This document shows positions 21,041 to 64,000 of a stretch of DNA of 64,000 nt, one piece after another. The stretch spans positions 18,556,001 to 18,620,000 of the forward strand of contig NC_092312.1 of the NCBI RefSeq assembly GCF_036785885.1, in the 5' to 3' direction. Source of the DNA: Coffea arabica. Taxonomy: Eukaryota; Streptophyta; Magnoliopsida; Gentianales; Rubiaceae. Positions within the stretch are counted from its first letter, which is position 1, and the number at the start of each line of letters is the position of its first letter. Position numbers and translations under genes: made by a program. The notes beneath the pieces are model-generated. The model was not told where the DNA came from, made no database searches, and saw only the letters and a program-made list of their open reading frames with translations.

Positions 21041-21336
21041 AAATATCCAAAAATTTATACACTTCAAAAAAAATTTTTACAACTTCTACAGTAAGTTACA
21101 ATAAAATTTTAGATAAACAACCAAAAAACTTATTTACCAAATAGGGCCTAAGTAGATTTAAGGAAAAAAAAAATCAAAAAGTAGTTTTGACAAAAAAAAT
21201 GGTAGATTTAAAGAAAATCACATAATTCCCCCGAGATCCCAACATCCCTTCAGCATCCATCCTCTCGTCCCTCCGACGTAAAGCCCTACTGATTAAACCA
21301 CAAAGTTCATCCAAATCTTAATTAGGAGCCAATCCG

Positions 21337-21509
21337 GTGAGTGTGTTTGGATTACACATTATTTTCACATTTTTTACACGCACTGACTTGCTTACATTAT
21401 TAACACATTTTCAACTACTTTTTTTATGTTACATACATCGCATCAAAAGAGTGCTACAGTATTTTTTCACAAATTTATTTCAAATAATTTACTATCCAAG
21501 CACACTCAC
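21337..21509. mobile_element. 173-bp MITE with GTGAGTGTG ends (unit 1 copy)
   Basis: The left end GTGAGTGTGTTTGGATTA pairs with the right end, whose reverse complement reads GTGAGTGTGCTTGGATAG. Further similarity extends to about 35 bp. The interior is AT-rich with no coding capacity and no clear target-site duplication. Copies lie at 27443-27615, 33533-33705 and the matching place in every other unit. Short units carry a diverged version (for example beginning at 39604). It inserted before the array formed. Confidence 0.65.
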
Positions 21510-21778
21510 TATTCTTGAAGTCGTACTCTTTCAAAATTGAATCAGCAATTAAGCAAGTCAATCCAGCACGAGGGTTGGAAGGAAGAACGGGAGTTTTATG
21601 TGCAATGATTGCACTCAAACTAGGCAGGAAGAAAAGTATATATCATCTATTATTCTATATTATGCAAAGTACATGTGTTTCTTCGTAAAAGTCTGATTAT
21701 AGAATTTAGCCCATCTTCATTATTATAAGCTGACTTTAGCTCCTCTCAAATATTATAAGTTGTGATGATCAGTTCTTA

Positions 21779-22703
21779 GGGCATCCACAGCGCGGGTGTA
21801 ATGGCCCTCCATTACACCGCTCCATGACACGGTCTCTCATTGGAGTCGTGTCATGGAGATTACACGCATCATATATTGTGATGATCAGTTCTTAGGGCAT
21901 CCACAGCGCGGGTGTAATGGCCCTCCATTACACCGCTCCATGACACGGTCTCCCATTGGAGTCGTGTCATGGAGATTACACGCATCATGGATATGATGCG
22001 TGTAATTTATTAGAAGGTGGGACCCATGATTAAATGTAAAATAATTCTAGCCACCAATTTTAGCTTCAACGGTAAGTTTGCCAGCACACAACACATTTTA
22101 GCTTTCCAACGGTTAGATTTTAGTCTTCTATATAAACACACAACACTTTGGGAACGATTCGAAGGCAATGACAATGAAAACTAGTATTCATTTTGTTATT
22201 ATTTGTATTTTATTTGATTTAAATTATGTAATATTATGTTATGGAGTTCAACTAATTATATTCCGAATTATTAATTAAGTATGGGTTATTATGATATCTT
22301 CGCATTTGAGGCATCAAATATTTGTTTAATTTCCTGCATAATTATTTTTGAAAAAAAAACAATATATTATTTTTGAAAGATAGAAAAGATATATTATTCA
22401 AACTTAAAAATTAATAATATCATTTTTAGAAAATAAAAAATTCAAAATGTAAAAAATTTAATGAAAGTTAGTACTTTATTTTTTAAAAATAACAAAATTA
22501 TTTTTAAAAATTACTTTATTTATTTATGGGATATGAGTTATGCATTATTAAAATAAATATTTGATTTAATTGTGGATCCATGTTATTACACCTTATGGAG
22601 TGTAATCCATTGTGAGTGAAAGTGTAATAAAAGAGGAGAAAGTGGAATGCTGACGTAGCATGTGGATTACACTCCACAAGGTGTAATAGTATTGTGGATG
22701 CTC
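21779..22703. mobile_element. PIF/Harbinger (Tourist-like) MITE, unit 1, 925 bp
   Basis: The ends are GGGCATCCACA and TGTGGATGCTC, flanked by TTA on both sides. The left end is tandemly duplicated with 116-bp spacing (21760 and 21876), and the duplicate includes about 16 bp of host flank. The interior has a short CAACGGT..TATATAAA stretch and no transposase. Confidence 0.85.
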
Positions 22704-22706
22704 TTA

Positions 22707-25506
22707 AGTTAAAATGGGAATCATAACACTTTTGTTGACTACTGAATGGAAATTTAAATTGGAATTTAAGAATAGGAGATGATATTGTAGTGAGAGATAA
22801 AAAGAGAGGGGCGAGGGGCGAAAATGAAAAGAGAGGTTAGGTATTGGGATGGGTAGTGGGAGGATCTGGTCTGCGATTAATATAATTGTAATGCTTTTTC
22901 AATGCTGCCCGGCTATTTGCTGTCAAATTAGTAAGGCCATGGGCAATTCTACACCGGCAAGTTGTTTTGGAGAAACTCAAGTCCTCAAGCCCAACATGTC
23001 GGCCCAAAATAGGTCCACGAGACGTTTAATGACAATTGGACGTCCCTTTCAGGGTTGCATGCTGAGCCCAATGTAGAAAGCCCTCTTCCGTGTGTGGTCC
23101 ATGAACTGACGCCCCCAACAGGAACGGTGGTCCAGTCATAAATTCCTTGTTTTTCTCTGTCTTTTTTGTCTTTTCAAATTTATTAATGAATTCTGTCCAG
23201 AATACATCTTGGTCCCGGTGGTCATCATCATACATTACCAGCAACTACAATCTGTTGTCTTGAGAAGCAGGCTCAGCGCAGACAAGCAGAGGCCAGGTCA
23301 AATAAGGGATCCTACATTCGGCAACAAATTGGAGTATTTACATCCGCTTGGTTTTGCTGAAAAATATGGTATACTGTACTATTGGGCAGACATACGTGTC
23401 AAAATGTGTGACTCGAACGAATTTGAATTAGTTAAAATGACGTTGAGTAGATTGAATTGAGTACACGTGGTATATTGATAGTGGTTGTCTAATGGACCGT
23501 CCGACCTGCCACCTGTACTAATTGGCAATCTTCCAAACCTTAGTTTTAACTAATTATGAAATTTGTTGACCTTAATTTCAAAGTTCTTGTAAAGGTGGAC
23601 CTTAAAGAGACATTAACATATGAATATTGACCGTGACAGTGAATAGACTCGGTAAGTACTAGTATCACCTTTTTTATGGTTAGTGAAAGCAGTTACTATC
23701 AAGAACTAGTAAAACCTCTTCCGCCAATTATCACCTACAGGTTAGGCTGCTATTTTCTGCTGTTGGACAAGATCAACTACAATATCATTGGATTGTCTCC
23801 CCCTTCCAGAATCCGGAGATACACGATAATGCTCAGGTCCTTGTCATGGACAAATAATGAGATTGATTACACAACGGTTCACTCCCCGATACAGAATTTT
23901 TTTTTATTTTTTAAAAAGAAGGGTATCATCGGCATTCTCTTTCTTCGCATGCCTCGCTCAGCTACTGGTGGCAGATATGATGAGCAAGTATCTATGTTGC
24001 ACATAAAGCCCGAGAAAGGGATTTGACATTAACATTTATCGGAATTTTTTTTTCTTTTGTAAAAAATTCTTATTTCGACTATTTATAATTACTCATGACT
24101 ATTTTTATTTTTAATTATTTAAATATATATTTTTCCTAAACATTGTAATTATCAATATAAAATTATTTTATGAAAAATATTTAAAAGATTAAAGTTTGCT
24201 TTAACAATAAAAAATTTATTCAAAATACATGCTTATAAATATTTTATATTTTTTCATTGCACGCATATCGTATGTGCATTGAGCACTAGTTGCAATAATG
24301 GTGAGAGACGCTGCACAAAGAAGAGGATTTGAAGATACCATACTAAATAATGCTCCACTAAAAGTAAAAATACCAAAGCAAGTGGCCTAGCCGAAATGCA
24401 AATGGCCCCCTAACTCTACGTCCATGGGCCGCGCGCCAGTTGAATGGTGACTCGAAATTTTTTTTTTTTTTTTTTTTTTGTAAATTCGCTTCGTCTTGTT
24501 TCGGTTGACAGCTATCACAATATCCGTTACTCAATCAACTAAACTCCAATCTCACGCAATATCAGTTTTACATTTATGACAAATTAATTAAAATGGAAGT
24601 GCATAATTTTGCTGCCTGCGAAAAGTCTAGCCTTTTGATTCTGAAATGAGATACAGGTCGCCAACCTAATTTTAAATATGAATCTATAGATGGGACCCAA
24701 GTCCAATTTGGTGAGGACTAGCGTCCAACCCCGTTCTACTGGCACGGATTAAGGAAATAATTGGAAAAATTAGATTTTCTATATACTTAATACATGTAAA
24801 TCATACTCGATTACCGCCCACGGATAAAGGAAATAATTGGAAAAGTAGTTTCCTTTCTATTTAACGAAGTTGAATTGAGAACATTTTGGAGACATTTTAG
24901 TTGTCACCAAGCTAAGGAAATATATTTTTCTAATTTTAACCTAGGCAAGAAAATACTTAGCAAAAAAAAAAAGAAGAAATAATTATGTTTTCGGAAGTAT
25001 ATATGTTTCTATATGTTGATGCATGAATTCATCCAAACAATATGTATATCGCTTTGCTAAAAGATAATAAACCATTAACTACTTAAACTAACTACACATG
25101 CCATTAAATAACAGTTTGATCGCTTTTTTGTTTTTTTGTTTTAAAAATTTTGATGAAATGACTAGATAGATAGTTCTCAACAATGCCATTTTCTTGGTCA
25201 GTGTGAGAGAGTAAATTATGTTTTGCCAGGAAAGAAGAAAATAGCTGTTAATTCTAGACAAATTGTCCATTTCTAAGTTTAATCCATCAATCAATGGGGA
25301 GTTAACACTAATTTATATTTTGTCGAAAAATATAGAGATGTTACTCTACATAAATCATCCATTTCTAAGTTTAATCCATCAATCAAGGGGAAATTAGGAG
25401 GGCGAAACAATGGAAACTGGAGAAAAAATATCGACCGAATCACAATAAAATCTTTGACGTTTTTAGGAAAGAAAATTACGGGTAAATATTAAGGAAGGTG
25501 GAACCT
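22707..25506. other. Unit spacer upstream of the MADS copy
   Basis: About 2.8 kb is repeated in each unit. Open frames at 23209-23460 and 23676-24026 recur, but they match no family I know. The second varies in its C-terminus with the length of a poly-T run, so I do not call them genes. The block 24040-24290 is very AT-rich and ends in a possible Helitron-like terminus. A poly-T run lies near 24459-24479. Confidence 0.5.
24259..24289 (+). mobile_element. Candidate Helitron-like 3' terminus
   Basis: A short hairpin (CGCATA-TCG-TATGTG, one G-T pair) lies 9 bp before CTAG, followed by T. This is the layout of plant Helitron 3' ends. No matching 5' TC end was established and no Rep/helicase gene is present, so this is tentative. 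It recurs in every unit. Confidence 0.3.
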
Positions 25507-25597
25507 TATATAATAATAGGATGGGATGCCAAAGCATTGAAGCTAGCCCTTAATTCACCAAAATCCCACCAAAAGACAAAAAAAAAAAAAGGCGAAA

Positions 25598-26322
25598 ATG
25601 AACAACATGATGATGAAGAAGAAGACGACCCAAGGTCGAAAAAAAATCGAGATCAAGAAGATAGACAACTTGAGCAACAGGAAAGTAGCCTTCTCCAAGC
25701 GAAGAGTCAGTCTCTTCAAGAAAGCAAGTGAACTTTGCGTCTTGACCGGGGCAGAAGTTGCCATCATCGTTCATTCTTTGGGCAAGCGCGTCTTTGCCTT
25801 TGGTCACCCCAACATTGACGCTGTTATTAACCGCTATACCACGGGATCGGCATCATCATCATCATCATCATCATCATCCTCGTCATCCGTTGCTGATCCG
25901 AATACCCTGTTGGGTGCTCATGAGATTCAACAACACAACCGACACTATGCTAAAGTGTCCAAAGAATTAGAGTCGAGAGAAAAAGAAAGGAATTGATTGA
26001 AGGTTCGAAGTTAGAGAACGGCGGGAGTTTTTGGTGGGATGACCCAATTGAGCATATGGGTTTGGAGGAGCTTCAACAGTATAAAGCTTCATTGGAAGAG
26101 TTGAAGAAAAAGCTGTTGATGAGAGCCGATGACTTGATGCTGTTGATAAATTCTTCTTCTTCTTCAACTAATTTGGGCTTTAATAATAGCGGTGATATCA
26201 ATCCCGGCGTGACTGCAGTTGGTTGTGATGATATGTTCTTCAATCAGACGACGACTGAATACTGCAACAACTCCATCGTTCCTTATGGTTCTGATGACTT
26301 CGGAAATTCTCTGCAGGTTTGA
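25598..26322 (+). pseudogene. B-type MADS copy, unit 1, frameshifted
   Basis: The frame opens at 25598 with MNNMMMKKK. It has a full MADS domain (core [15 protein letters not shown]) and a 12-serine tract. One base is missing relative to B0 near 25970, turning LEVERKRK into LESREKERN and a stop at 25996, for 132 aa. The rest (WWDDPIEHMGLEELQQYK and the tail) stays open in another frame to 26322. The lesion is shared with units 3 to 7, so it predates most of the amplification. The 132-aa product would keep DNA binding and dimerisation but lose the C-terminal module. It could be a truncated MADS peptide or simply dead; the sequence does not decide. Confidence 0.8.
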
Positions 26323-26941
26323 AGATCTGTGGTTGGCGAAGTCAGGAGGATTCTATAATAAGTTTAATATATGCATGGCTTTCAGCAGTTTTCTTTTTAG
26401 TGTTTAGTTTATGGATGGTTTTTCACAGTGTTGTTAGTGTTCGTTCCTTATGAATTACTATAGATTAGGCTCTTGCAGTGTTTTATTTTATTATGTTGAC
26501 TGATGTCTCTTTTTTTATTTTTGTCTTTCAGTGATTTTTAAGTAAGAGTATTCTTTATATATTTATATATATGTGTGTGTGCGAGCCAATCTTAAATAAT
26601 TGATATTAGTGTTAAAAAGCACACTCAATGTGTGTGCAATTTAGAAATCATTATTATTTTTTATGAATTTGTAAATTTTATTTTTTCATTAATAAATTTT
26701 ATAAGAACTTTTCATTAACAAACTTCAATCTATAATTAATTTTTTCTTCAATTAAAAATAGATAATTTGGTAATTGCAATATTTAGAGTGATTATGTTGG
26801 TAAATGTGATCACGTGAGTTAGGGTAAAAAATTAATTTTCTAAGAATAAAATTGAAAGTTCGAAAAAAAATTGTAGAAAATATTTACACTGGCTGTCAAT
26901 GCCCTCTTCTTATATATTGTATAGAAAAAGACACGATCACA

Positions 26942-26959
26942 GTCCGTAATGTTACGGAC
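26942..26959. other. 18-bp near-perfect palindrome in unit 3' flank
   Basis: GTCCGTAA, TG, TTACGGAC form 8-bp perfect arms with a 2-nt centre. It lies 20 bp right of the point where homology to the B0 segment stops, and it is kept in all units. It may mark the end of an inserted sequence or a breakpoint. Confidence 0.6.
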
Positions 26960-27018
26960 GCTTTTTCACCGCAAGATTACATGTGCGTTGATGCGTTTCC
27001 AGTTTGTCCAATAACTAA

Positions 27019-27255
27019 GGCCTTGTTTGCAAGCAAGTTTTGGCTAAGTTTATTTGTTGCAAGTTTTTTAAAAACAGTTATAATAACTTCAAAAAATTTT
27101 CAAAAATTTTAAATTATATTCTTCAAAATATCCAAAAAATTACTTCAAAATATCCAAAAATTTATACACTTCAAAAAAAAATTTTACAACTTCTACAGTA
27201 AGTTACAATAAAATTTTAGACAAATAACCAAAAAACTTATTTACCAAATAGGGCC
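27019..27255. mobile_element. 237-bp MITE with GGCCTTGTTTG ends and TAA target site
   Basis: The left end is GGCCTTGTTTGCAAGCAAGT. The reverse complement of the right end is GGCCCTATTTGGTAAATAAG. TAA flanks both sides (27016-27018, 27256-27258), as in PIF/Harbinger-type MITEs. Other copies include 33109-33345 and a 215-bp version at 39201-39415 in front of short units, which lacks an internal 22-bp repeat. The left edge of the whole array falls inside this element. Confidence 0.75.
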
Positions 27256-27884
27256 TAAGTAGATTTAAAGGAAAAAAAATCAAAAAGTAGTTTTGACAAA
27301 AAAAAGGGTAGATTTAAAGAAAATCACATAATTCCCCCGAGATCCCAACATCCCTTCAGCATCCATCCTCTCGTCCCTCCGACGTAAAGCCCTACTGATT
27401 AAACCACAAAGTTCATCCAAATCTTAATTAGGAGCCAATCCGGTGAGTGTGTTTGGATTACACATTATTTTCACATTTTTTACACGCACTGACTTGCTTA
27501 CATTATTAACACATTTTCAACTACTTTTTTTATCTTACATACATCACATCAAAAGAGTGCTACAGTATTTTTTCACAAATTTATTTCAAATAATTTACTA
27601 TCCAAGCACACTCACTATTCTTGAAGTCGTACTCTTTCAAAATTGAATCAGCAATTAAGCAAGTCAATCCAGCACGAGGGTTGGAAGGAAGAACGGGAGT
27701 TTTATGTGCAATGATTACACTCAAACTAGGCAGGAAGAAAAGTATATATCATCTATTATTCTATATTATGCAAAGTACATGTGTTTCTTCGTAAAAGTCT
27801 GATTATAGAATTTAGCCCCTCTTCATTATTATAAGCTGACTTTAGCTCCTCTCAAATATTATAAGTTGTGATGATCAGTTCTTA

Positions 27885-28793
27885 GGGCATCCACAGCGCG
27901 GGTGTAATGGCCCTCCATTACACCGCTCCATGACACGGTCTCTCATTGGAGTCGTGTCATTGAGATTGTGATGATCAGTTCTTAGGGCATCCACAGCGCG
28001 GGTGTAATGGCCCTCCATTACACCGCTCCATGACACGGTCTCCCATTGGAGTCGTGTCATGGAGATTACACGCATCATGGATATGATGCGTGTAATTTAT
28101 TAGAAGGTGGGACCCATGATTAAATGTAAAATAATTCTAGCCACCAATTTTAGCTTCAACGGTAAGTTTGCCAGCACACAACACATTTTAGCTTTCCAAC
28201 GGTTAGATTTTAGTCTTCTATATAAACACACAACACTTTGGGAACGATTCGAAGGCAATGACAATGAAAACTAGTATTCATTTTGTTATTATTTGTATTT
28301 TATTTGATTTAAATTATGTAATATTATGTTATGGAGTTCAACTAATTATATTCCGAATTATTAATTAAGTATGGGTTATTATGATATCTTCGCATTTGAG
28401 GCATCAAATATTTGTTTAATTTCCTGCATAATTATTTTTGAAAAAAAAACAATATATTATTTTTGAAAGATAGAAAAGATATATTATTCAAACTTAAAAA
28501 TTAATAATATCATTTTTAGAAAATAAAAAATTCAAAATGTAAAAAATTTAATGAAAGTTAGTACTTTATTTTTTAAAAATAACAAAATTATTTTTAAAAA
28601 TTACTTTATTTATTTATGGGATATGAGTTATGCATTATTAAAATAAATATTTGATTTAATTGTGGATCCATGTTATTACACCTTATGGAGTGTAATCCAT
28701 TGTGAGTGAAAGTGTAATAAAAGAGGAGAAAGTGGAATGCTGACGTAGCATGTGGATTACACTCCACAAGGTGTAATAGTATTGTGGATGCTC
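27885..28793. mobile_element. PIF/Harbinger-like MITE, unit 2, 909 bp
   Basis: GGGCATCCACA and TGTGGATGCTC ends have flanking TTA at 27882-27884 and 28794-28796. The left end is duplicated with 100-bp spacing (27866 and 27966), so the original element was about 809 bp. Inside are perfect 14-bp inverted arms (28065-28078 with 28083-28096) and a 24-bp inverted pair (28676-28699 with 28753-28776, one mismatch). The motif TTACAC occurs repeatedly near both ends. Confidence 0.9.
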
Positions 28794-31686
28794 TTAAGTT
28801 AAAATGGGAATCATAACACTTTTGTTGACTACTGAATGGAAATTTAAATTGGAATTTAAGAATAGGAGATGATATTGTAGTGAGAGATAAAAAGAGAGGG
28901 GCGAGGGGCGAAAATGAAAAGAGAGGTTAGGTATTGGGATGGGTAGTGGGAGGATCTGGTCTGCGATTAATATAATTGTAATGCTTTTTCAATGCTGCCC
29001 GGCTATTTGCTGTCAAATTAGTAAGGCCATGGGCAATTCTACACCGGCAAGTTGTTTTGGAGAAACTCAAGTCCTCAAGCCCAACATGTCGGCCCAAAAT
29101 AGGTCCACGAGACGTTTAATGACAATTGGACGTCCCTTTCAGGGTTGCATGCTGAGCCCAATGTAGAAAGCCCTCTTCCGTGTGTGGTCCATGAACTGAC
29201 GCCCCCAACAGGAACGGTGGTCCAGTCATAAATTCCTTGTTTTTCTCTGTCTTTTTTGTCTTTTCAAATTTATTAATGAATTCTGTCCAGAATACATCTT
29301 GGTCCCGGTGGTCATCATCATACATTACCAGCAACTACAATCTGTTGTCTTGAGAAGCAGGCTCAGCGCAGACAAGCAGAGGCCAGGTCAAATAAGGGAT
29401 CCTACATTCGGCAACAAATTGGAGTATTTACATCCGCTTGGTTTTGCTGAAAAATATGGTATACTGTACTATTGGGCAGACAGACGTGTCAAAATGTGTG
29501 ACTCGAACGAATTTGAATTAGTTAAAATGACGTTGAGTAGATTGAATTGAGTACACGTGGTATATTGATAGTGGTTGTCTAATGGACCGTCCGACCTGCC
29601 ACCTGTACTAATTGGCAATCTTCCAAACCTTAGTTTTAACTAATTATGAAATTTGTTGACCTTAATTTCAAAGTTCTTGTAAAGGTGGACCTTAAAGAGA
29701 CATTAACATATGAATATTGACCGTGACAGTGAATAGACTCGGTAAGTACTAGTATCACCTTTTTTATGGTTAGTGAAAGCAGTTACTATCAAGAACTAGT
29801 AAAACCTCTTCCGCCAATTATCACCTACAGGTTAGGCTGCTATTTTCTGCTGTTGGACAAGATCAACTACAATATCATTGGATTGTCTCCCCCTTCCAGA
29901 ATCCGGAGATACACGATAATGCTCAGGTCCTTGTCATGGACAAATAATGAGATTGATTACACAACGGTTCACTCCCCGATACAGAATTTTTTTTATTTTT
30001 TAAAAAGAAGGGTATCATCGGCATTCTCTTTCTTCGCATGCCTCGCTCAGCTACTGGTGGCAGATATGATGAGCAAGTATCTATGTTGCACATAAAGCCC
30101 GAGAAAGGGATTTGACATTAACATTTATCGGAATTTTTTTTTCTTTTGTAAAAAATTCTTATTTCGACTATTTATAATTACTCATGACTATTTTTATTTT
30201 TAATTATTTAAATATATATTTTTCCTAAACATTGTAATTATCAATATAAAATTATTTTATGAAAAATATTTAAAAGATTAAAGTTTGCTTTAACAATAAA
30301 AAATTTATTCAAAATACATGCTTATAAATATTTTATATTTTTTCATTGCACGCATATCGTATGTGCATTGAGCACTAGTTGCAATAATGGTGAGAGACGC
30401 TGCACAAAGAAGAGGATTTGAAGATACCATACTAAATAATGCTCCACTAAAAGTAAAAATACCAAAGCAAGTGGCCTAGCCGAAATGCAAATGGCCCCCT
30501 AACTCTACGTCCATGGACCGCGCGCCAATTGAATGGTGACTCGAAATTTTTTTTTTTTTTTTTTTTTTTGTAAATTCGCTTCGTCTTGTTTCGGTTGACA
30601 GCTATCACAATATCCGTTACTCAATCAACTAAACTCCAATCTCACGCAATATCAGTTTTACATTTATGACAAATTAATTAAAATGGAAGTGCATAATTTT
30701 GCTGCCTGCGAAAAGTCTAGCCTTTTGATTCTGAAATGAGACACAGGTCGCCAACCTAATTTTAAATATGAATCTATAGATGGGACCCAAGTCCAATTTG
30801 GTGAGGACTAGCGTCCAACCCCGTTCTACTGGCACGGATTAAGGAAATAATTGGAAAAATTAGATTTTCTATATACTTAATACATGTAAATCATACTCGA
30901 TTACCGCCCACGGATAAAGGAAATAATTGGAAAAGTAGTTTCCTTTCTATTTAACGAAGTTGAATTGAGAACATTTTGGAGACATTTTAGTTGTCACCAA
31001 GCTAAGGAAATATATTTTTCTAATTTTAACCTAGGCAAGAAAATACTTAGCAAAAAAAAAAAGAAGAAATAATTATGTTTTCGGAAGTATATATGTTTCT
31101 ATATGTTGATGCATGAATTCATCCAAACAATATGTATATCGCTTTGCTAAAAGATAATAAACCATTAACTACTTAAACTAACTACACATGCCATTAAATA
31201 ACAGTTTGATCGCTTTTTTGTTTTTTTGTTTTAAAAATTTTGATGAAATGACTAGATAGATAGTTCTCAACAATGCCATTTTCTTGGTCAGTGTGAGAGA
31301 GTAAATTATGTTTTGCCAGGAAAGAAGAAAATAGCTGTTAATTCTAGACAAATTGTCCATTTCTAAGTTTAATCCATCAATCAATGGGGAGTTAACACTA
31401 ATTTATATTTTGTCGAAAAATATAGAGATGTTACTCTACATAAATCATCCATTTCTAAGTTTAATCCATCAATCAAGGGGAAATTAGGAGGGCGAAACAA
31501 TGGAAACTGGAGAAAAAATATCGACCGAATCACAATAAAATCTTTGACGTTTTTAGGAAAGAAAATTACGGGTAAATATTAAGGAAGGTGGAACCTTATA
31601 TAATAATAGGATGGGATGCCAAAGCATTGAAGCTAGCCCTTAATTCACCAAAATCCCACCAAAAGACAAAAAAAAAAATGGCGAAA

Positions 31687-33974: not shown

Positions 33975-34883
33975 GGGCATCCACAGCGCGGGTGTAATGG
34001 CCCTCCATTACACCGCTCCATGACACGGTCTCTCATTGGAGTCGTGTCATTGAGATTGTGATGATCAGTTCTTAGGGCATCCACAGCGCGGGTGTAATGG
34101 CCCTCCATTACACCGCTCCATGACACGGTCTCCCATTGGAGTCGTGTCATGGAGATTACACGCATCATGGATATGATGCGTGTAATTTATTAGAAGGTGG
34201 GACCCATGATTAAATGTAAAATAATTCTAGCCACCAATTTTAGCTTCAACGGTAAGTTTGCCAGCACACAACACATTTTAGCTTTCCAACGGTTAGATTT
34301 TAGTCTTCTATATAAACACACAACACTTTGGGAACGATTCGAAGGCAATGACAATGAAAACTAGTATTCATTTTGTTATTATTTGTATTTTATTTGATTT
34401 AAATTATGTAATATTATGTTATGGAGTTCAACTAATTATATTCCGAATTATTAATTAAGTATGGGTTATTATGATATCTTCGCATTTGAGGCATCAAATA
34501 TTTGTTTAATTTCCTGCATAATTATTTTTGAAAAAAAAACAATATATTATTTTTGAAAGATAGAAAAGATATATTATTCAAACTTAAAAATTAATAATAT
34601 CATTTTTAGAAAATAAAAAATTCAAAATGTAAAAAATTTAATGAAAGTTAGTACTTTATTTTTTAAAAATAACAAAATTATTTTTAAAAATTACTTTATT
34701 TATTTATGGGATATGAGTTATGCATTATTAAAATAAATATTTGATTTAATTGTGGATCCATGTTATTACACCTTATGGAGTGTAATCCATTGTGAGTGAA
34801 AGTGTAATAAAAGAGGAGAAAGTGGAATGCTGACGTAGCATGTGGATTACACTCCACAAGGTGTAATAGTATTGTGGATGCTC
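33975..34883. mobile_element. PIF/Harbinger-like MITE, unit 3
   Basis: Same ends, TTA flanks and 100-bp left-end duplication as the unit 2 copy; 909 bp. Confidence 0.9.
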
Positions 34884-40018: not shown

Positions 40019-40021
40019 TTA
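40019..40021. other. Empty MITE target site, unit 4
   Basis: Short units read GATCAGTTCTTAAGTTAAAA with a single TTA. Long units have the MITE between two TTA copies at this point. The same empty site is at 51172-51174 and 62331-62333. Confidence 0.9.
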
Positions 40022-50461: not shown

Positions 50462-53400
50462 AAATATCCAAAAATTTATACCCTCTAAAAAAATTTTTAT
50501 AACTTCTACAGTAAGTTACAATAAAACTTTAGACAAATACCCAAAAAACTTACTTACCAAATAAGGCCTAAGTAGATTTAAAGGAAAAAAAAATCACAGA
50601 GTAGTTTTGACAAAAAAAAAAGGTAGATTTAAGGAAAATCACATAATTCCCCCGAGATACCAACATCCCTTCAGCATCCATCCTGTCACCCCTCCGACAT
50701 AAAGCCCGACCGATTAAACCACAAAGTTCATCCAAATCTTAATTAGAAGCCAATCTGGTGAGTGTGTCTGGATTATACATTATTATTTTCACCTTATTTA
50801 CACGCACCGACTTGCTTGAATTATCAACACATTTTCAATCACTTTTTTTTTATCTTACATACGTCGCATCAAAAAAGTACTACAGTATTTTTTCACAAAT
50901 TTATTTCAAATAATTTACTATCCAAGCACACTCATTATTCTTGAAGTCGTACTCTTTCAAAATTGAATCAGCAATTAAGCAAATCAATCCAGCGCGAGGG
51001 TTGGAAGGAAGAACGGGAGTTTTATGTGCAATGATTACACTCAAACTAGGCAGGAAGAAAAGTATATATCATCTATTATTCTATATTATGCAAAGTACAT
51101 GTGTTTCTTCGTAAAAGTCTGATTATAGAATTTAGCTCCTCTCAAATATTATAAGTTGTGATGATCAGTTCTTAAGTTAAAATGGGAATCATAATACTTT
51201 TCTTGACTACTGAATGGAAATTTAAATTGGAATTTAAGAATAGGAGATGATATTGTAGTGAGAGATAAAAAGAGATGAGTGAGGGGCGAAAATGAAAAGA
51301 GCGGTTAGGTGCTTTTTCAATGCTGCCCGGCCATTTGCTGTCAAATTAGTAAGGCCATGGGCAATTCTACTCCGGCAAGTTGGTTGGAGAAAGTCCAGTC
51401 CTCAAGCCCAACATGTCGGCCCAGACGTTTAATTACAGTTGGACGCCCCTTTCAGGGTTGCGTGCTGAGCCCAATGTAGAAAGCCCTCTTCCGTTTGTGG
51501 TCCATGAACTGACGCCCCCAACAGGAACGGTGGTCCAGTCATAAATTCCTTGTTTTTCTCTGTCTTTTTTGTCTTTTCAAATTTATTAATGAATTCTGTC
51601 CAGAATACATCTTGGTCCCGGTGGTCATCATCATACATTACCAGCAACTACAATCTGTTGTCTTGAGAAACAGGCTCAGCGCAGACAAGCAGAGGCCAGG
51701 TCAAATAAGGGATCCTACATTCGGCAACAAATTGGAGTATTTACATCCGCTTGGTTTTGCTGAAAAATATGGTATACTGTACTATTGGGCAGACAGACGT
51801 GTCAAAATGTGTGACTCGAACGAATTTGAATTAGTTAAAATGACGTTGAGTAGATTGAATTGAGTACACGTGGTATATTGATAGTGGTTGTCTAATGGAC
51901 CGTCCAACCTGCCACCTGTACTAATTGGCAATCTTCCAAACCTTAGTTTTAACTAATTATGAAATTTGTTGACCTTAATTTCAAAGTTCTTGTAAAGGTG
52001 GACCTTAAAGAGACATTAACATATGAATATTGACCGTGACAGTGAATAGACTCGGTAAGTACTAGTATCACCTTTTTTATGGTTAGTGAAAGCAGTTACT
52101 ATCAAGAACTAGTAAAACCTCATCCGCCAATTATCACCTACAGGTTAGGCTGCTATTTTTTGCTGTTGGACAAGATCAACTACAATATCATTGGATTGTC
52201 TCCCCCTTCCAGAATCCGGAGATACACGATAATGCTCAGGTCCTTGTCATGGACAAATAATGAGATTGATTACACAACGGTTCACTCCCCGATACAGAAT
52301 TTTTTTTTTTTTTTTAAAAAGAAGGGTATCATCGGCATTCTCTTTCTTCGCATGCCTCGCTCAGCTACTGGTGGCAGATATGAAGAGCAAGTATCTATGT
52401 TGCACATAAAGCCCGAGAAAGGGATTTGAAATTAACATTTATCGGAATTTTTTTTTCTTTTGTAAAAAATTCTTATTTCGACTATTTATAATTACTCATG
52501 ACTATTTTTATTTTTAATTATTTAAATATATATTTTTCCTAAACATTGTAATTATCAATATAAAATTATTTTATGAAAAATATTTAAAAGATTAAAGTTT
52601 GCTTTAACAATAAAAAATTTATTCAAAATACATGATTATAAATATTTTATATTTTTTCATTGCACGCATATCGTATGTGCATTGAGCACTAGTTGCAATA
52701 ATGGTGAGAGACGCTGCACAAAGAAGAGGATTTGAAGATACCATACTAAATAATGCTCCACTAAAAGTAAAAATACCAAAGCAAGTGGCCTAGCCGAAAT
52801 GCAAATGGCCCCCTAACTCTACGTCCATGGGCCGCGCGCCAGTTGAATGGTGACTCCAAATTTTTTTTTTTTTTTTTTTTTGTAAATTTGCTTCGTCTTG
52901 TTTCGGTTGACAGCTATCACAATATCCGTTACTCAATCAACTAAACTCCAGTCTCACGCAATATCAGTTTTACATTTATGACAAATTAATTAAAATGGAA
53001 GTGCATAATTTTGCTGCCTGCGAAAAGTCTAGCCTTTTGATTCTGAAATGAGATACAGGTCGCCAACCTAATTTTAAATATGAATCTATAGATGGGACCC
53101 AAGTCCAATTTGGTGAGGACTAGCGTCCAACCCCGTTCTACTGGCACGGATTAAGGAAATAATTGGAAAAATTAGATTTTCTATATACTTAATACATGTA
53201 AATCATACTCGATTACCGCCCACGGATTAAGGAAATAATTGGAAAAGTAGTTTCCTTTCTATTTAACGAAGTTGAATTGAGAACATTTTGGAGACATTTT
53301 AGTTGTCACCAAGCTAAGGAAATATATTTTTCTAATTTTAACCTAGGCAAGAAAATACTTAGCAAAAAAAAAAAGAAGAAATAATTATGTTTTCGGAAGT

Positions 53401-55549
53401 ATATATGTTTCTATATGTTGATGCATGAATTCATCCAAACAATATGTATATCGCTTTGCTAAAAGATAATAAACCATTAACTACTTAAACTAACTACACA
53501 TGCCATTAAATAACAGTTTGATCGTTTTTTTGTTTTTTTGTTTTAAAAATTTTGATGAAATGACTAGATAGATAGTTCTCAACAATGCCATTTTCTTGGT
53601 CAGTGTGAGAGAGTAAATTATGTTTTGCCAGGAAAGAAGAAAATAGCTGTTAATTCTAGACAAATTGTCCATTTCTAAGTTTAATCCATCAATCAATGAG
53701 GAGTTAACACTAATTTATATTTTGTCGAAAAATATAGAGATGTTACTCTACATAAATCATCCATTTCTAAGTTTAATCCATCAATCAAGGGGAAATTAGG
53801 AGGGCGAAACAATGGAAACTGGAGAAAAAATATCGACCGAATCACAATAAAATCTTTGACGTTTTTAGGAAAGAAAATTACGGGTAAATATTAAGGAAGG
53901 TGGAACCTTATATAATAATAGGATGGGATGCCAAAGCATTGAAGCTAGCCCTTAATTCACCAAAATCCCACCAAAAGACAAAAAAAAAAAAAGGCGAAAA
54001 TGAACAACATGATGATGAAGAAGAAGACGACCCAAGGTCGAAAAAAAATCGAGATCAAGAAGATAGACAACTTGAGCAACAGGCAAGTAGCCTTCTCCAA
54101 GCGAAGAGTCGGTCTCTTCAAGAAAGCAAGTGAACTTTGCGTCTTGACCGGGGCAGAAGTTGCCATCATCGTTCATTCTTTGGGCAAGCGCGTCTTTGCC
54201 TTTGGTCACCCCAGCATTGACGCTGTTATTAACCGCTATACCACGGGATCGGCATCATCATCATCATCATCATCATCATCCTCGTCATCCGTTGCTGATC
54301 CGAATACCCCGTTGGGTGCTCATGAGATTCAACAACACAACCGACACTATGCTAAAGTGTCCAAAGAATTAGAGTCGAGAGAAAAAGAAAGGAATTGATT
54401 GAAGGTTCGAAGTTAGAGAACGGCGGGAGTTTTTGGTGGGATGACCCAATTGAGCATATGGGTTTGGAGGAGCTTCAACAGTATAAAGCTTCATTGGAAG
54501 AGTTGAAGAAAAAGCTGTTGATGAGAGCCGATGACTTGATGCTGTTGATAAATTCTTCTTCTTCTTCAACTAATTTGGGCTTTAATAATAGCGGTGATAT
54601 CAATCCCGGCGTGACTGCAGTTGGTTGTGATGATATGTTCTTCAATCAGACGACGACTGAATACTGCAACAACTCCATCGTTCCTTATGGTTCTGATGAC
54701 TTCGGAAATTCTCTGCAGGTTTGAAGATCTGTGGTTGGCGAAGTCAGGAGGATTCTATAATAAGTTTAATATATGCATGGCTTTCAGCAGTTTTCTTTTT
54801 AGTGTTTAGTTTATGGATGGTTTTTCACAGTGTTGTTAGTGTTCGTTCCTTATGAATTACTATAGATTAGGCTCTTGCAGTGTTTTATTTTATTATGTTG
54901 ACTGATGTCTCTTTTTTTATTTTTGTCTTTCAGTGATTTTTAAGTAAGAGTATTCTTTATATATTTATATATATGTGTGTGTGCGAGCCAATCTTAAATA
55001 ATTGATATTAGTGTTAAAAAGCACACTCAATGTGTGTGCAATTTAGAAATCATTATTATTTTTTATGAATTTGTAAATTTTATTTTTTCATTAATAAATT
55101 TTATAAGAACTTTTCATTAACAAACTTCAATCTATAATTAATTTTTTCTTCAATTAAAAATAGATAATTTGGTAATTGCAATATTTAGAGTGATTATGTT
55201 GGTAAATGTGATCACGTGAGTTAGGGTAAAAAATTAATTTTCTAAGAATAAAATTGAAAGTTCGAAAAAAAATTGTAGAAAATATTTACACTGGCTGTCA
55301 ATGCCCTCTTCTTATATATTGTATAGAAAAAGACACGATCACAGTCCGTAATGTTACGGACGCTTTTTCACCGCAAGATTACATGTGCGTTGATGCGTTT
55401 CCAGTTTGTCCAATAACTAAGGCCTTGTTTGCAAGCAAGTTTTGGCTAAGTTTATTTGTTGCAAGTTTTTTAAAAACAGTTATAATAACTTCAAAAAATT
55501 TTCAAAAATTTTAAATTATATTCTTCAAAATATCCAAAAAATTACTTCA
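50462..55549 (+). repeat. Array unit 6 (short)
   Basis: MITE-free unit almost identical to unit 4. It is 6 bp longer, from poly-T length differences. Confidence 0.9.
54000..54724 (+). pseudogene. B-type MADS copy, unit 6, frameshifted
   Basis: 132-aa frame to 54398 with a full MADS domain, the shared 1-bp loss, and a second frame to 54724. It carries the unit 4 type of silent variants. Confidence 0.8.
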
Positions 55550-56286
55550 AAATATCCAAAAATTTATACACTTCAAAAAAAAATTTTACAACTTCTACAG
55601 TAAGTTACAATAAAATTTTAGACAAATAACCAAAAAACTTATTTACCAAATAGGGCCTAAGTAGATTTAAAGGAAAAAAAATCAAAAAGTAGTTTTGACA
55701 AAAAAAAGGGTAGATTTAAAGAAAATCACATAATTCCCCCGAGATCCCAACATCCCTTCAGCATCCATCCTCTCGTCCCTCCGACGTAAAGCCCTACTGA
55801 TTAAACCACAAAGTTCATCCAAATCTTAATTAGGAGCCAATCCGGTGAGTGTGTTTGGATTACACATTATTTTCACATTTTTTACACGCACTGACTTGCT
55901 TACATTATTAACACATTTTCAACTACTTTTTTTATCTTACATACATCACATCAAAAGAGTGCTACAGTATTTTTTCACAAATTTATTTCAAATAATTTAC
56001 TATCCAAGCACACTCACTATTCTTGAAGTCGTACTCTTTCAAAATTGAATCAGCAATTAAGCAAGTCAATCCAGCACGAGGGTTGGAAGGAAGAACGGGA
56101 GTTTTATGTGCAATGATTACACTCAAACTAGGCAGGAAGAAAAGTATATATCATCTATTATTCTATATTATGCAAAGTACATGTGTTTCTTCGTAAAAGT
56201 CTGATTATAGAATTTAGCCCCTCTTCATTATTATAAGCTGACTTTAGCTCCTCTCAAATATTATAAGTTGTGATGATCAGTTCTTA

Positions 56287-57195
56287 GGGCATCCACAGCG
56301 CGGGTGTAATGGCCCTCCATTACACCGCTCCATGACACGGTCTCTCATTGGAGTCGTGTCATTGAGATTGTGATGATCAGTTCTTAGGGCATCCACAGCG
56401 CGGGTGTAATGGCCCTCCATTACACCGCTCCATGACACGGTCTCCCATTGGAGTCGTGTCATGGAGATTACACGCATCATGGATATGATGCGTGTAATTT
56501 ATTAGAAGGTGGGACCCATGATTAAATGTAAAATAATTCTAGCCACCAATTTTAGCTTCAACGGTAAGTTTGCCAGCACACAACACATTTTAGCTTTCCA
56601 ACGGTTAGATTTTAGTCTTCTATATAAACACACAACACTTTGGGAACGATTCGAAGGCAATGACAATGAAAACTAGTATTCATTTTGTTATTATTTGTAT
56701 TTTATTTGATTTAAATTATGTAATATTATGTTATGGAGTTCAACTAATTATATTCCGAATTATTAATTAAGTATGGGTTATTATGATATCTTCGCATTTG
56801 AGGCATCAAATATTTGTTTAATTTCCTGCATAATTATTTTTGAAAAAAAAACAATATATTATTTTTGAAAGATAGAAAAGATATATTATTCAAACTTAAA
56901 AATTAATAATATCATTTTTAGAAAATAAAAAATTCAAAATGTAAAAAATTTAATGAAAGTTAGTACTTTATTTTTTAAAAATAACAAAATTATTTTTAAA
57001 AATTACTTTATTTATTTATGGGATATGAGTTATGCATTATTAAAATAAATATTTGATTTAATTGTGGATCCATGTTATTACACCTTATGGAGTGTAATCC
57101 ATTGTGAGTGAAAGTGTAATAAAAGAGGAGAAAGTGGAATGCTGACGTAGCATGTGGATTACACTCCACAAGGTGTAATAGTATTGTGGATGCTC
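56287..57195. mobile_element. PIF/Harbinger-like MITE, unit 7
   Basis: 909 bp, same ends, TTA flanks and 100-bp left-end duplication. Confidence 0.9.
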
Positions 57196-60091
57196 TTAAG
57201 TTAAAATGGGAATCATAACACTTTTGTTGACTACTGAATGGAAATTTAAATTGGAATTTAAGAATAGGAGATGATATTGTAGTGAGAGATAAAAAGAGAG
57301 GGGCGAGGGGCGAAAATGAAAAGAGAGGTTAGGTATTGGGATGGGTAGTGGGAGGATCTGGTCTGCGATTAATATAATTGTAATGCTTTTTCAATGCTGC
57401 CCGGCTATTTGCTGTCAAATTAGTAAGGCCATGGGCAATTCTACACCGGCAAGTTGTTTTGGAGAAACTCAAGTCCTCAAGCCCAACATGTCGGCCCAAA
57501 ATAGGTCCACGAGACGTTTAATGACAATTGGACGTCCCTTTCAGGGTTGCATGCTGAGCCCAATGTAGAAAGCCCTCTTCCGTGTGTGGTCCATGAACTG
57601 ACGCCCCCAACAGGAACGGTGGTCCAGTCATAAATTCCTTGTTTTTCTCTGTCTTTTTTGTCTTTTCAAATTTATTAATGAATTCTGTCCAGAATACATC
57701 TTGGTCCCGGTGGTCATCATCATACATTACCAGCAACTACAATCTGTTGTCTTGAGAAGCAGGCTCAGCGCAGACAAGCAGAGGCCAGGTCAAATAAGGG
57801 ATCCTACATTCGGCAACAAATTGGAGTATTTACATCCGCTTGGTTTTGCTGAAAAATATGGTATACTGTACTATTGGGCAGACATACGTGTCAAAATGTG
57901 TGACTCGAACGAATTTGAATTAGTTAAAATGACGTTGAGTAGATTGAATTGAGTACACGTGGTATATTGATAGTGGTTGTCTAATGGACCGTCCGACCTG
58001 CCACCTGTACTAATTGGCAATCTTCCAAACCTTAGTTTTAACTAATTATGAAATTTGTTGACCTTAATTTCAAAGTTCTTGTAAAGGTGGACCTTAAAGA
58101 GACATTAACATATGAATATTGACCGTGACAGTGAATAGACTCGGTAAGTACTAGTATCACCTTTTTTATGGTTAGTGAAAGCAGTTACTATCAAGAACTA
58201 GTAAAACCTCTTCCGCCAATTATCACCTACAGGTTAGGCTGCTATTTTCTGCTGTTGGACAAGATCAACTACAATATCATTGGATTGTCTCCCCCTTCCA
58301 GAATCCGGAGATACACGATAATGCTCAGGTCCTTGTCATGGACAAATAATGAGATTGATTACACAACGGTTCACTCCCCGATACAGAATTTTTTTTTTTT
58401 TTTTAAAAAGAAGGGTATCATCGGCATTCTCTTTCTTCGCATGCCTCGCTCAGCTACTGGTGGCAGATATGATGAGCAAGTATCTATGTTGCACATAAAG
58501 CCCGGGAAAGGGATTTGAAATTAACATTTATCGGAATTTTTTTTTCTTTTGTAAAAAATTCTTATTTCGACTATTTATAATTACTCATGACTATTTTTAT
58601 TTTTAATTATTTAAATATATATTTTTCCTAAACATTGTAATTATCAATATAAAATTATTTTATGAAAAATATTTAAAAGATTAAAGTTTGCTTTAACAAT
58701 AAAAAAATTTATTCAAAATACATGGTTATAAATATTTTATATTTTTTCATTGCACGCATATCGTATGTGCATTGAGCACTAGTTGCAATAATGGTGAGAG
58801 ACGCTGCACAAAGAAGAGGATTTGAAGATACCATACTAAATAATGCTCCACTAAAAGTAAAAATACCAAAGCAAGTGGCCTAGCCGAAATGCAAATGGCC
58901 CCCTAACTCTACGTCCATGGGCCGCGCGCCAGTTGAATGGTGACTCCAAATTTTTTTTTTTTTTGTAAATTTGCTTCGTCTTGTTTCGGTTGACAGCTAT
59001 CACAATATCCGTTACTCAATCAACTAAACTCCAGTCTCACGCAATATCAGTTTTACATTTATGACAAATTAATTAAAATGGAAGTGCATAATTTTGCTGC
59101 CTGCGAAAAGTCTAGCCTTTTGATTCTGAAAAGAGATACAGGTCGCCAACCTAATTTTAAATATGAATCTATAGATGGGACCCAAGTCCAATTTGGTGAG
59201 GACTAGCGTCCAACCCCGTTCTACTGGCACGGATTAAGGAAATAATTGGAAAAATTAGATTTTCTATATACTTAATACATGTAAATCATACTCGATTACC
59301 GCCCACGGATTAAGGAAATAATTGGAAAAGTAGTTTCCTTTTTATTGATCTATTTAACGAAGTTGAATTGAGAACATTTTGGAGACATTTTAGTTGTCAC
59401 CAAGCTAAGGAAATATATTTTTCTAATTTTAACCTAGGCAAGAAAATACTTAGCAAAAAAAAAAAAGAAGAAATAATTATGTTTTCGGAAGTATATATGT
59501 TTCTATATGTTGATGCATGAATTCATCCAAACAATATGTATATCGCTTTGCTAAAAGATAATAAACCATTAACTACTTAAACTAACTACACATGCCATTA
59601 AATAACAGTTTGATCGTTTTTTTGTTTTTTTGTTTTAAAAATTTTGATGAAATGACTAGATAGATAGTTCTCAACAATGCCATTTTCTTGGTCAGTGTGA
59701 GAGAGTAAATTAAGTTTTGCCAGGAAAGAAGAAAATAGCTGTTAATTCTGGACAAATTGTCCATTTCTAAGTTTAATCCATCAATCAATGAGGAGTTAAC
59801 ACTAATTTATATTTTGTCGAAAAATATAGAGATGTTACTCTACATAAATCATCCATTTCTAAGTTTAATCCATCAATCAAGGGGAAATTAGGAGGGCGAA
59901 ACAATGGAAACTGGAGAAAAAATATCGACCGAATCACAATAAAATCTTTGACGTTTTTAGGAAAGAAAATTACGGGTAAATATTAAGGAAGGTGGAACCT
60001 TATATAATAATAGGATGGGATGCCAAAGCATTGAAGCTAGCCCTTAATTCACCAAAATCCCACCAAAAGACAAAAAAAAAAAAAGGCGAAA

Positions 60092-60816
60092 ATGAACAAC
60101 ATGATGATGAAGAAGAAGACGACCCAAGGTCGAAAAAAAATCGAGATCAAGAAGATAGACAACTTGAGCAACAGGCAAGTAGCCTTCTCCAAGCGAAGAG
60201 TCGGTCTCTTCAAGAAAGCAAGTGAACTTTGCGTCTTGACCGGGGCAGAAGTTGCCATCATCGTTCATTCTTTGGGCAAGCGCGTCTTTGCCTTTGGTCA
60301 CCCCAGCATTGACGCTGTTATTAACCGCTATACCACGGGATCGGCATCATCATCATCATCATCATCATCATCCTCGTCATCCGTTGCTGATCCGAATACC
60401 CCGTTGGGTGCTCATGAGATTCAACAACACAACCGACACTATGCTAAAGTGTCCAAAGAATTAGAGTCGAGAGAAAAAGAAAGGAATTGATTGAAGGTTC
60501 GAAGTTAGAGAACGGCGGGAGTTTTTGGTGGGATGACCCAATTGAGCATATGGGTTTGGAGGAGCTTCAACAGTATAAAGCTTCATTGGAAGAGTTGAAG
60601 AAAAAGCTGTTGATGAGAGCCGATGACTTGATGCTGTTGATAAATTCTTCTTCTTCTTCAACTAATTTGGGCTTTAATAATAGCGGTGATATCAATCCCG
60701 GAGTGACTGCAGTTGGTTGTGATGATATGTTCTTCAATCAGACAACGACTGAATACTGCAACAACTCCATCGTTCCTTATGGTTCTGATGACTTCGGAAA
60801 TTCTCTGCAGGTTTGA
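60092..60816 (+). pseudogene. B-type MADS copy, unit 7, frameshifted
   Basis: 132-aa frame to 60490 with an intact MADS domain and serine tract, then the shared 1-bp loss and a second frame to 60816. It matches the unit 3 and unit 5 copies. Confidence 0.8.
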
Positions 60817-61620
60817 AGATCTGTGGTTGGCGAAGTCAGGAGGATTCTATAATAAGTTTAATATATGCATGGCTTTCAGCAGTTTTCTTTTTAGTGTTTA
60901 GTTTATGGATGGTTTTTCACAGTGTTGTTAGTGTTCGTTCTTTATGAATTACTATAGATTAGGCTCTTGCAGTGTTTTATTTTATTATGTTGACTGATGT
61001 CTCTTTTTTTATTTTTGTCTTTCAGTGATTTTTAAGTAAGAGTATTCTTTATATATTTATATATATGTGTGTGTGCGAGCCAATCTTAAATAATTGATAT
61101 TAGTGTTAAAAAGCACACTCAATGTGTGTGCAATTTAGAAATCATTATTATTTTTTATGAATTTGTAAATTTTATTTTTTCATTAATAAATTTTATAAGA
61201 ACTTTTCATTAACAAACTTCAATCTATAATTAATTTTTTCTTCAATTAAAAATAGATAATTTGGTAATTGCAATATTTAGAGTGATTATGTTGGTAAATG
61301 TGATCACGTGACTTAGGGTAAAAAATTAATTTTCTAAGAATAAAATTGAAAGTTCGAAAAAAAATTGTAGAAAATATTTACACTGGCTGTCAATGCCCTC
61401 TTCTTATATATTGTATAGAAAAAGACACGATCACAGTCCGTAATGTTACGGACGCTTTTCCACCGCAAGATCACATGTGCGTTGATGAGTTTCCAGTTTG
61501 TCGAACAACTAAGGCCTTGTTTCGCAGGCAAGTTTTGGCTAAGTTTATTTGTTGTAAGATTTTTAAAAATAGTTATAATAACTTTAAAAAGTTTTCAAAA
61601 ATTTTAAATTACATTCTTCA

Positions 61621-64000
61621 AAATATCCAAAAATTTATACCCTCTAAAAAAATTTTTATAACTTCTACAGTAAGTTACAATAAAACTTTAGACAAATACC
61701 CAAAAAACTTACTTACCAAATAAGGCCTAAGTAGATTTAAAGGAAAAAAAAATCACAGAGTAGTTTTGACAAAAAAAAAAGGTAGATTTAAGGAAAATCA
61801 CATAATTCCCCCGAGATACCAACATCCCTTCAGCATCCATCCTGTCACCCCTCCGACATAAAGCCCGACCGATTAAACCACAAAGTTCATCCAAATCTTA
61901 ATTAGAAGCCAATCTGGTGAGTGTGTCTGGATTATACATTATTATTTTCACCTTATTTACACGCACCGACTTGCTTGAATTATCAACACATTTTCAATCA
62001 CTTTTTTTTTATCTTACATACGTCGCATCAAAAAAGTACTACAGTATTTTTTCACAAATTTATTTCAAATAATTTACTATCCAAGCACACTCATTATTCT
62101 TGAAGTCGTACTCTTTCAAAATTGAATCAGCAATTAAGCAAATCAATCCAGCGCGAGGGTTGGAAGGAAGAACGGGAGTTTTATGTGCAATGATTACACT
62201 CAAACTAGGCAGGAAGAAAAGTATATATCATCTATTATTCTATATTATGCAAAGTACATGTGTTTCTTCGTAAAAGTCTGATTATAGAATTTAGCTCCTC
62301 TCAAATATTATAAGTTGTGATGATCAGTTCTTAAGTTAAAATGGGAATCATAATACTTTTCTTGACTACTGAATGGAAATTTAAATTGGAATTTAAGAAT
62401 AGGAGATGATATTGTAGTGAGAGATAAAAAGAGATGAGTGAGGGGCGAAAATGAAAAGAGCGGTTAGGTGCTTTTTCAATGCTGCCCGGCCATTTGCTGT
62501 CAAATTAGTAAGGCCATGGGCAATTCTACTCCGGCAAGTTGGTTGGAGAAAGTCCAGTCCTCAAGCCCAACATGTCGGCCCAGACGTTTAATTACAGTTG
62601 GACGCCCCTTTCAGGGTTGCGTGCTGAGCCCAATGTAGAAAGCCCTCTTCCGTTTGTGGTCCATGAACTGACGCCCCCAACAGGAACGGTGGTCCAGTCA
62701 TAAATTCCTTGTTTTTCTCTGTCTTTTTTGTCTTTTCAAATTTATTAATGAATTCTGTCCAGAATACATCTTGGTCCCGGTGGTCATCATCATACATTAC
62801 CAGCAACTACAATCTGTTGTCTTGAGAAACAGGCTCAGCGCAGACAAGCAGAGGCCAGGTCAAATAAGGGATCCTACATTCGGCAACAAATTGGAGTATT
62901 TACATCCGCTTGGTTTTGCTGAAAAATATGGTATACTGTACTATTGGGCAGACAGACGTGTCAAAATGTGTGACTCGAACGAATTTGAATTAGTTAAAAT
63001 GACGTTGAGTAGATTGAATTGAGTACACGTGGTATATTGATAGTGGTTGTCTAATGGACCGTCCAACCTGCCACCTGTACTAATTGGCAATCTTCCAAAC
63101 CTTAGTTTTAACTAATTATGAAATTTGTTGACCTTAATTTCAAAGTTCTTGTAAAGGTGGACCTTAAAGAGACATTAACATATGAATATTGACCGTGACA
63201 GTGAATAGACTCGGTAAGTACTAGTATCACCTTTTTTATGGTTAGTGAAAGCAGTTACTATCAAGAACTAGTAAAACCTCTTCCGCCAATTATCACCTAC
63301 AGGTTAGGCTGCTATTTTCTGCTGTTGGACAAGATCAACTACAATATCATTGGATTGTCTCCCCCTTCCAGAATCCGGAGATACACGATAATGCTCAGGT
63401 CCTTGTCATGGACAAATAATGAGATTGATTACACAACGGTTCACTCCCCGATACAGAATTTTTTTTTTTTTTTTAAAAAGAAGGGTATCATCGGCATTCT
63501 CTTTCTTCGCATGCCTCGCTCAGCTACTGGTGGCAGATATGATGAGCAAGTATCTATGTTGCACATAAAGCCCGAGAAAGGGATTTGAAATTAACATTTA
63601 TCGGAATTTTTTTTTCTTTTGTAAAAAATTCTTATTTCGACTATTTATAATTACTCATGACTATTTTTATTTTTAATTATTTAAATATATATTTTTCCTA
63701 AACATTGTAATTATCAATATAAAATTATTTTATGAAAAATATTTAAAAGATTAAAGTTTGCTTTAACAATAAAAAAATTTATTCAAAATACATGATTATA
63801 AATATTTTATATTTTTTCATTGCACGCATATCGTATGTGCATTGAGCACTAGTTGCAATAATGGTGAGAGACGCTGCACAAAGAAGAGGATTTGAAGATA
63901 CCATACTAAATAATGCTCCACTAAAAGTAAAAATACCAAAGCAAGTGGCCTAGCCGAAATGCAAATGGCCCCCTAACTCTACGTCCATGGGCCGCGCGCC
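61621..64000 (+). repeat. Array unit 8 (short, cut by window edge)
   Basis: The first 2.4 kb of another short unit with an empty MITE site. Its MADS copy would lie about 1.1 kb beyond the right edge, so the array does not end here. Confidence 0.9.

Follow-up and report, generated by a model that had tools for sequence, protein, structure and literature searches.

A stretch of 64,000 nucleotides from Coffea arabica (NC_092312.1, positions 18,556,001 to 18,620,000 of the forward strand; hereafter the window, whose own coordinates are used throughout) contains a tandem array of a MADS transcription-factor gene and its spacer, which runs from 21039 to the window end at 64000 and consists of seven complete units and a partial eighth, all on the + strand. 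The array resembles a gene on its way to becoming a satellite repeat rather than a set of extra working genes: it is probably a young, gene-derived, macrosatellite-like tandem repeat that has been spreading a mostly dead gene by unequal exchange. Alignment of the units suggests the following course: a MADS gene lacking a K-box, a relative of an intact paralogue outside the array (F), multiplied head to tail together with promoter and spacer through unequal exchange; one unit lineage gained an insert resembling a miniature inverted-repeat transposable element (MITE), and an older insert-free version of the spacer survived in another; the resulting pair of long (L) and short (S) units, 11.15 kb in all, then became what was amplified, so that a higher-order repeat arose; and a 1-bp change, by which the protein loses its C-terminal half, was carried to six of the seven gene copies. 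The repeat would grow and homogenize by exchange, with the gene as its passenger.

Structure of the array

Parallel self-matches run from 21038 to 64000 when the window is compared with itself by BLAST, and of the array's 42943 20-mers 35109 have already occurred further left in it; the control (one mononucleotide shuffle, which keeps base counts only) has none among 42943. With boundaries set by alignment at the recurring start, the units are:

21039-27145, +: U1, edge unit, 6107 bp; MITE-like insert present; gene frameshifted
27146-33235, +: U2, 6090 bp; insert present; the only open full-length MADS open reading frame (ORF) among the seven gene-bearing units
33236-39306, +: U3, type L, 6071 bp; 0/6071 differences from U5 and from U7
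39307-44388, +: U4, type S, 5082 bp; without the MITE-like insert
44389-50459, +: U5, type L, 6071 bp
50460-55547, +: U6, type S, 5088 bp; 4 single-nucleotide polymorphisms (SNPs) in 5082 and 2 insertion or deletion (indel) events relative to U4
55548-61618, +: U7, type L, 6071 bp
61619-64000, +: U8, type S, cut at the window end, 2382 bp; 2/2380 SNPs relative to U4 and 3/2381 relative to U6

Self-BLAST and unit alignment agree in upholding the original prediction of a head-to-tail array with at least seven copies and an eighth unit entering at the edge; the gene copies in the array part of the window number seven. The upstream spacer, first put at ~2.8 kb, is longer than that: from the unit start to the ATG there are ~4.54-4.56 kb in U1 and U3, and U4 has 3.53 kb. 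Near-identity of the spacers, also proposed, describes the relation within each kind, L or S, and not that between the two.

MITE-like inserts distinguish the unit types and lie at these positions:

21779-22703, no strand assigned: insert of U1, 925 bp, beginning GGGCATCCACA and finishing TGTGGATGCTC, with TTA on both sides
27885-28793: insert of U2, 909 bp
33975-34883: insert of U3, 909 bp
45128-46036: insert of U5, 909 bp
56287-57195: insert of U7, 909 bp

The same beginning and finish, flanked by TTA, are found in five of five inserts, and the inverted ends are alike at 10 of 11 positions. U4 has a single plain TTA at the insert site, read straight through, and the same gap is aligned in U6 and U8. 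Because TTA stands on both sides of the insert in L and as a plain site in U4, L represents the insertion and S the empty site, and the origin of S by deletion from L is ruled out on the same grounds. The insert has the TTA-like duplication and short inverted ends of a PIF/Harbinger-type MITE, and by the rule of a 3-bp target duplication it may be of the Harbinger type. The left end of the insert and some of its flank are duplicated in tandem, over 116 bp in U1 (21760-21988) and 100 bp in U2, U3, U5 and U7.

Divergence between the unit types is uneven: U4 differs from U3 at 55/1036 positions (5.3%) at the unit start, 17/3790 (0.45%) in the middle and 12/222 (5.4%) at the end, and U3 differs from U1 at 12/222 at the unit end and at 0/1200 across 21900-23100, a stretch that takes in most of the insert and the flank to its right. 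Each L|S junction thus holds one ~1.3 kb island of older spacer, the remainder being young:

39082-40350, no strand assigned: older spacer island across the L|S junction; ends approximate, from alignment by hand
near 50.2-51.5 kb: the same island
near 61.4-62.7 kb: the same island

Higher-order repeat and proposed homogenization

After an introductory pair, U1 and U2, the units follow in the order L-S-L-S-L-S, and the block that repeats is L+S (11153-11159 bp), with exact matches of up to 8688 bp at 11.15-kb spacing. Units of like type are far closer than units of unlike type. The three L units are identical without gaps (0/6071), and any two of the S units (U8 over the part inside the window) are separated by 2-4 SNPs (4/5082 between U4 and U6) and one or two indel events, against 84 SNPs between L and U4 and 82 between L and U6 over ~5051 bp, plus ~1.0 kb of gaps. 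U1 and U2 differ from L at 44/6060 and 43/6058 positions, respectively, and from each other at 21/6088. Kilobase units arranged head to tail at high identity, with seven complete units of 5.1-6.1 kb, bear out the macrosatellite-like form that had been proposed; macrosatellites have tens of copies whose number varies between individuals, and the window holds seven units and part of another.

Private bases number nine in U1, six in U2, one in U6 and none in the other five units (identical L units can have none, and U8 is partial), and all nine of U1 lie at 21114-21855, in the outer part of the unit. More private bases at the edge are as expected if the interior has been homogenized more than the edge. 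At 26346, 26401 and 26624 (U1 numbering) U2 has the base of U4, unlike F and the five other gene-bearing units, and at 25682, 25709 and 25908 it agrees with U1; since U2 otherwise groups with U1, the three bases in common with U4 are a sign of exchange. The gradient from edge to interior and the U2/U4 conflict together fit unequal exchange with conversion. Bases that U8 has in common with L at 23719 and 23757 were dropped as signs of exchange, as retention of the older state by U8 explains them equally. From the two-unit repeat, the identical L units and the derived variants common to non-neighbouring units, we infer unequal exchange with conversion as the mechanism and the order of events given above. 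At neutral rates of 1e-9 to 1.5e-8 per site per year, the identity of the L units sets upper bounds on their age of ~165,000 down to 11,000 years, for a star tree and an assembly assumed to be right.

The same identity over 6071 bp in three units and the same long exact repeats at 11.15-kb spacing would also be expected if the true unit number were lower and the assembler had repeated a shorter array or interleaved two haplotypes. Such an artefact is unlikely: the S units differ mutually, U1 and U2 differ from the rest, and reads longer than ~9 kb could separate the exact repeats. Moreover, an insertion and 5.3% divergence separate the spacers of L from those of S, so at least two unit types are real, which does not by itself fix the number of units.

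Frameshift in the gene copies

The young repeat favoured here carries a gene that is mostly broken. The gene copies, the paralogous block F and two further MADS genes with which they were compared are:

31678-32412, +: intact 244-amino-acid (aa) MADS ORF of U2; SRF-TF domain 64.6 bits (Pfam)
25598-25996, +: truncated 132-aa MADS ORF of U1; SRF-TF 65.9 bits
37780-38178, +: truncated 132-aa MADS ORF of U3; SRF-TF 71.3 bits
42841-43239, +: truncated 132-aa MADS ORF of U4; SRF-TF 71.3 bits
48933-49331, +: truncated 132-aa MADS ORF of U5, from ORF reading
54000-54398, +: truncated 132-aa MADS ORF of U6, from ORF reading
60092-60490, +: truncated 132-aa MADS ORF of U7, from ORF reading
5946-8159, +: paralogous block F, outside the array; 93.4-94.1% BLAST identity to the seven units
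6827-7549, +: intact 240-aa MADS ORF of F, from the ORF list
4274-4945, +: intact MADS ORF, 223 aa (g4274)
17042-17707, +: intact MADS ORF, 221 aa (g17042)

Alignment finds six of the seven copies (U1 and U3-U7) one base shorter at the site where F reads GAGGTCG and U2 reads GAAGTCG, and a translated search splits six of the seven over two frames. The frameshifted copies encode a MADS-domain fragment that lacks the C-terminal half. The missing base lies ~80 bp beyond the polyserine tract (25851-25887), which rules out microsatellite slippage there as the cause. What had been described as amplification of a transcription-factor gene is therefore repetition of a MADS gene with its spacer, as stated, but for the most part not of a full-length gene, six of the seven copies having one frameshift in common. 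For the open frame of U2 two histories are conceivable: repair by insertion of one base (two events in all), or an ancestral open frame with the loss transferred to U1 by conversion (three events).

Plant type I MADS genes encode a MADS domain without a K-box in a single-exon reading frame. All four full-length predicted proteins (U2, F, g4274 and g17042) have the SRF-TF domain and no K-box at E 0.001, and each is one open frame, in keeping with type I; the narrower label M-alpha for the array gene is plausible. Endosperm expression and M-gamma partners are described as marks of M-alpha* (AGL62-like) proteins (PMC8788222).

The spacer gave no sign of a second gene: no Pfam cut-off was reached by five U1 spacer frames and one U3 spacer frame (best 15.2 bits, cut-off 25). 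A 116-aa spacer frame with an ATG (23676-24026) is open in U1, U3 and U5-U8 and not in U2 or U4, has no Pfam match in its U1 and U3 versions and is probably due to chance. The MADS proteins also match IMUP, with 27.1 bits in U2 against a cut-off of 27 and lower scores in the others listed; this match was set aside, as were weaker ones to SR-25, WND and LtuB. The serine-rich stretch is where the IMUP and SR-25 matches lie. Scans for tRNA and Rfam families gave 0 matches.

Small RNAs and methylation

Repeated, broken gene copies could also act on their intact relatives, if small RNAs from the array were to methylate or cleave F (and U2) and lower the dose of MADS protein in the seed. Of the 700 24-mers in the coding sequence of F, 449 have exact matches in the array (U2 counted), with 2902 copies in total, and 679 of 712 coding 24-mers of U2 occur elsewhere in the array; MITE-like DNA lies within U1, U2 and the three L units. 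There are precedents for such an effect. In Capsella, siren small interfering RNAs (siRNAs) are reported to act on AGL genes both in cis and in trans (PMC11649575), and in Arabidopsis silencing of FOLT1, attributed to RNA-directed methylation, goes with a locus that carries truncated as well as functional copies of FOLT2 (PMC5257005). Small RNAs and methylation are reported in the Arabidopsis case, whereas the MADS array is known from its sequence arrangement alone.

Trans-silencing is nevertheless distinctly unlikely. Any recent paralogue is expected to match in sequence, and inverted units as a source of hairpin double-stranded RNA are ruled out, no minus-strand BLAST match beginning within the first 30 kb. 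The eight units have CpG observed/expected ratios of 0.73-0.81, the F block one of 0.84 and other stretches of the flank 0.23-0.79; CpG is not clearly depleted in the array, which thus has no clear sequence mark of long-standing methylation, and comparison of the units with the F block speaks against a methylation scar. The array has no exact coding 24-mers of g4274 (0/649) or g17042 (0/643), so within the window only F and U2 could be targets; a broken MADS copy at the array border, outside the units, matches 307 of 649 coding 24-mers of g4274. A wider proposal is a long shot: that a dead MADS gene of reproductive type, made into a higher-order satellite, is a dosage-sensitive source of small RNAs against F, such that array length would tune the dose of endosperm MADS protein and might form a hybrid seed barrier between copy numbers.

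Elsewhere in the window, the stretch at 1-3757 has a CpG observed/expected ratio of 0.23, with TpG/CpA at 1.36, unlike the array, and is possibly long-methylated DNA.

Possible constraint on the gene copies

The preferred reading, that the gene is a mostly dead passenger of a young repeat and that the array as a whole would not be kept for its protein, has to be weighed against several observations. The structure was read from an assembled sequence. U2 keeps an open frame of 244 aa, and a full SRF-TF match is present in three of three 132-aa products tested (U1, U3 and U4), so the broken copies are not certainly inert. A TATATA motif in the promoter block is retained in all seven array copies, at -90 to -92 of the same start as in F. 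Between F and U2 the coding sequence is less diverged (18/723 substitutions) than the flanks (57/1439; 34/850 in the 5' part and 23/589 in the 3' part), with p=0.08, and dN/dS, the ratio of replacement to silent substitution rates, is 0.42 (7 silent, 11 replacement), also with p=0.08. This pattern leans towards past constraint without showing it; the gene may have been constrained for part of its history, and some copy may still work.

U2 has nine private changes, indels included, of which four fall within 393 of its 6090 bp, at the gene (p=0.002, in a test of clustering chosen after the data had been seen); they may reflect conversion from an unseen intact copy, selection or chance. One private A-to-T change of U2 makes an in-frame ATG (MAK-) just 5' of the usual start (31667-31690), and U2 also carries a private replacement.

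The motif, the retained domain and this clustering, together with the identity of five of the six truncated products, could be read as signs of a dosage array, its copies kept for a MADS protein that is either full-length (U2) or a 132-aa competitor for partners or sites. Such a function is very improbable: recency accounts for the identity; Ala replaces the Thr of RQVTFSKRR in seven of seven array copies; the 132-aa ORFs of U1 and U3 differ by four amino-acid changes and at no silent site, a pattern of replacements only that is consistent with weak or absent constraint; and the SRF-TF scores of the four array copies tested all lie under those of F (73.7 bits), g17042 (80.5) and g4274 (86). 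U1 and U2 additionally have Lys for Gln and Ser for Gly in the same motif; the Thr and the Gly are common to F, g4274, g17042 and the three MEF2 chains shown, and the Gln is Leu in g17042.

Comparison with known gene-bearing repeats

A MADS gene caught up in a repeat, as we read the array, has likenesses among known systems. Human D4Z4 likewise has a transcription-factor gene, DUX4, in every tandem unit (PMC3616921, PMC5849414); DUX4 differs in being a retrogene with known silencing biology, whereas the MADS array has alternating units and six of its seven genes are broken. TSPY on the primate Y chromosome forms homogeneous gene-bearing units of 20.4 kb, with many pseudogenes in the chimpanzee, and its copy number is thought to shift through unequal sister exchange (PMC3924835); its units are larger and Y-linked, and no two-unit higher-order form is described in the part of that source drawn on here. 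Plant type I (M-type) MADS genes are described as evolving by birth and death, with frequent duplication and pseudogenes (PMC13293092). Here, in contrast, gene and spacer recur together in regular blocks of two units that are up to 100% identical. To our knowledge such regularity is unusual for type I MADS genes, and we recognized no report of a higher-order array of these genes in searches of the open-licence literature.

The array catches a gene between tandem duplication and satellite DNA; much of the order of events can be read from the pairing of units, the insert that sets one type apart and the frameshift common to six copies. If the array makes small RNAs, it would provide a testable link between change in copy number and MADS dose; MADS regulators of a similar kind have been tied to hybrid seed failure in Capsella (PMC11649575). 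If it makes none, it would be an example of regular amplification that implies no selection for the gene product.

Left border and neighbouring genes

Together with g4274, g17042 and F, the array belongs to a mixed local cluster of MADS genes. Its left border includes part of a second MADS gene:

20122-21040, +: left border, a 99.5% copy of 3758-4677, with the start of a second MADS gene (copy of g4274)

The g4274 copy has an in-frame stop after codon 57 and is interrupted near codon 134 by the start of the array; 3 bp (TCA) at the junction are common to the copy and the unit. Because its divergence is low beside the ~4% of F versus the units, the border appears to have formed, or to have been converted, after F and the array split, which suggests that it is younger than that split.

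Between F and the array, on the - strand, 8218-14326 contains gene pieces split by introns. A GAD domain lies at 8504-8791 (42.6 bits) and an OB-fold at 13696-14145 (31.1 bits), and another match to GAD, at 8221-8577, is weaker (20.3 bits, under the cut-off of 23.4); from the GAD and OB-fold domains, the pieces presumably resemble a bacterial-type aspartyl-tRNA synthetase.

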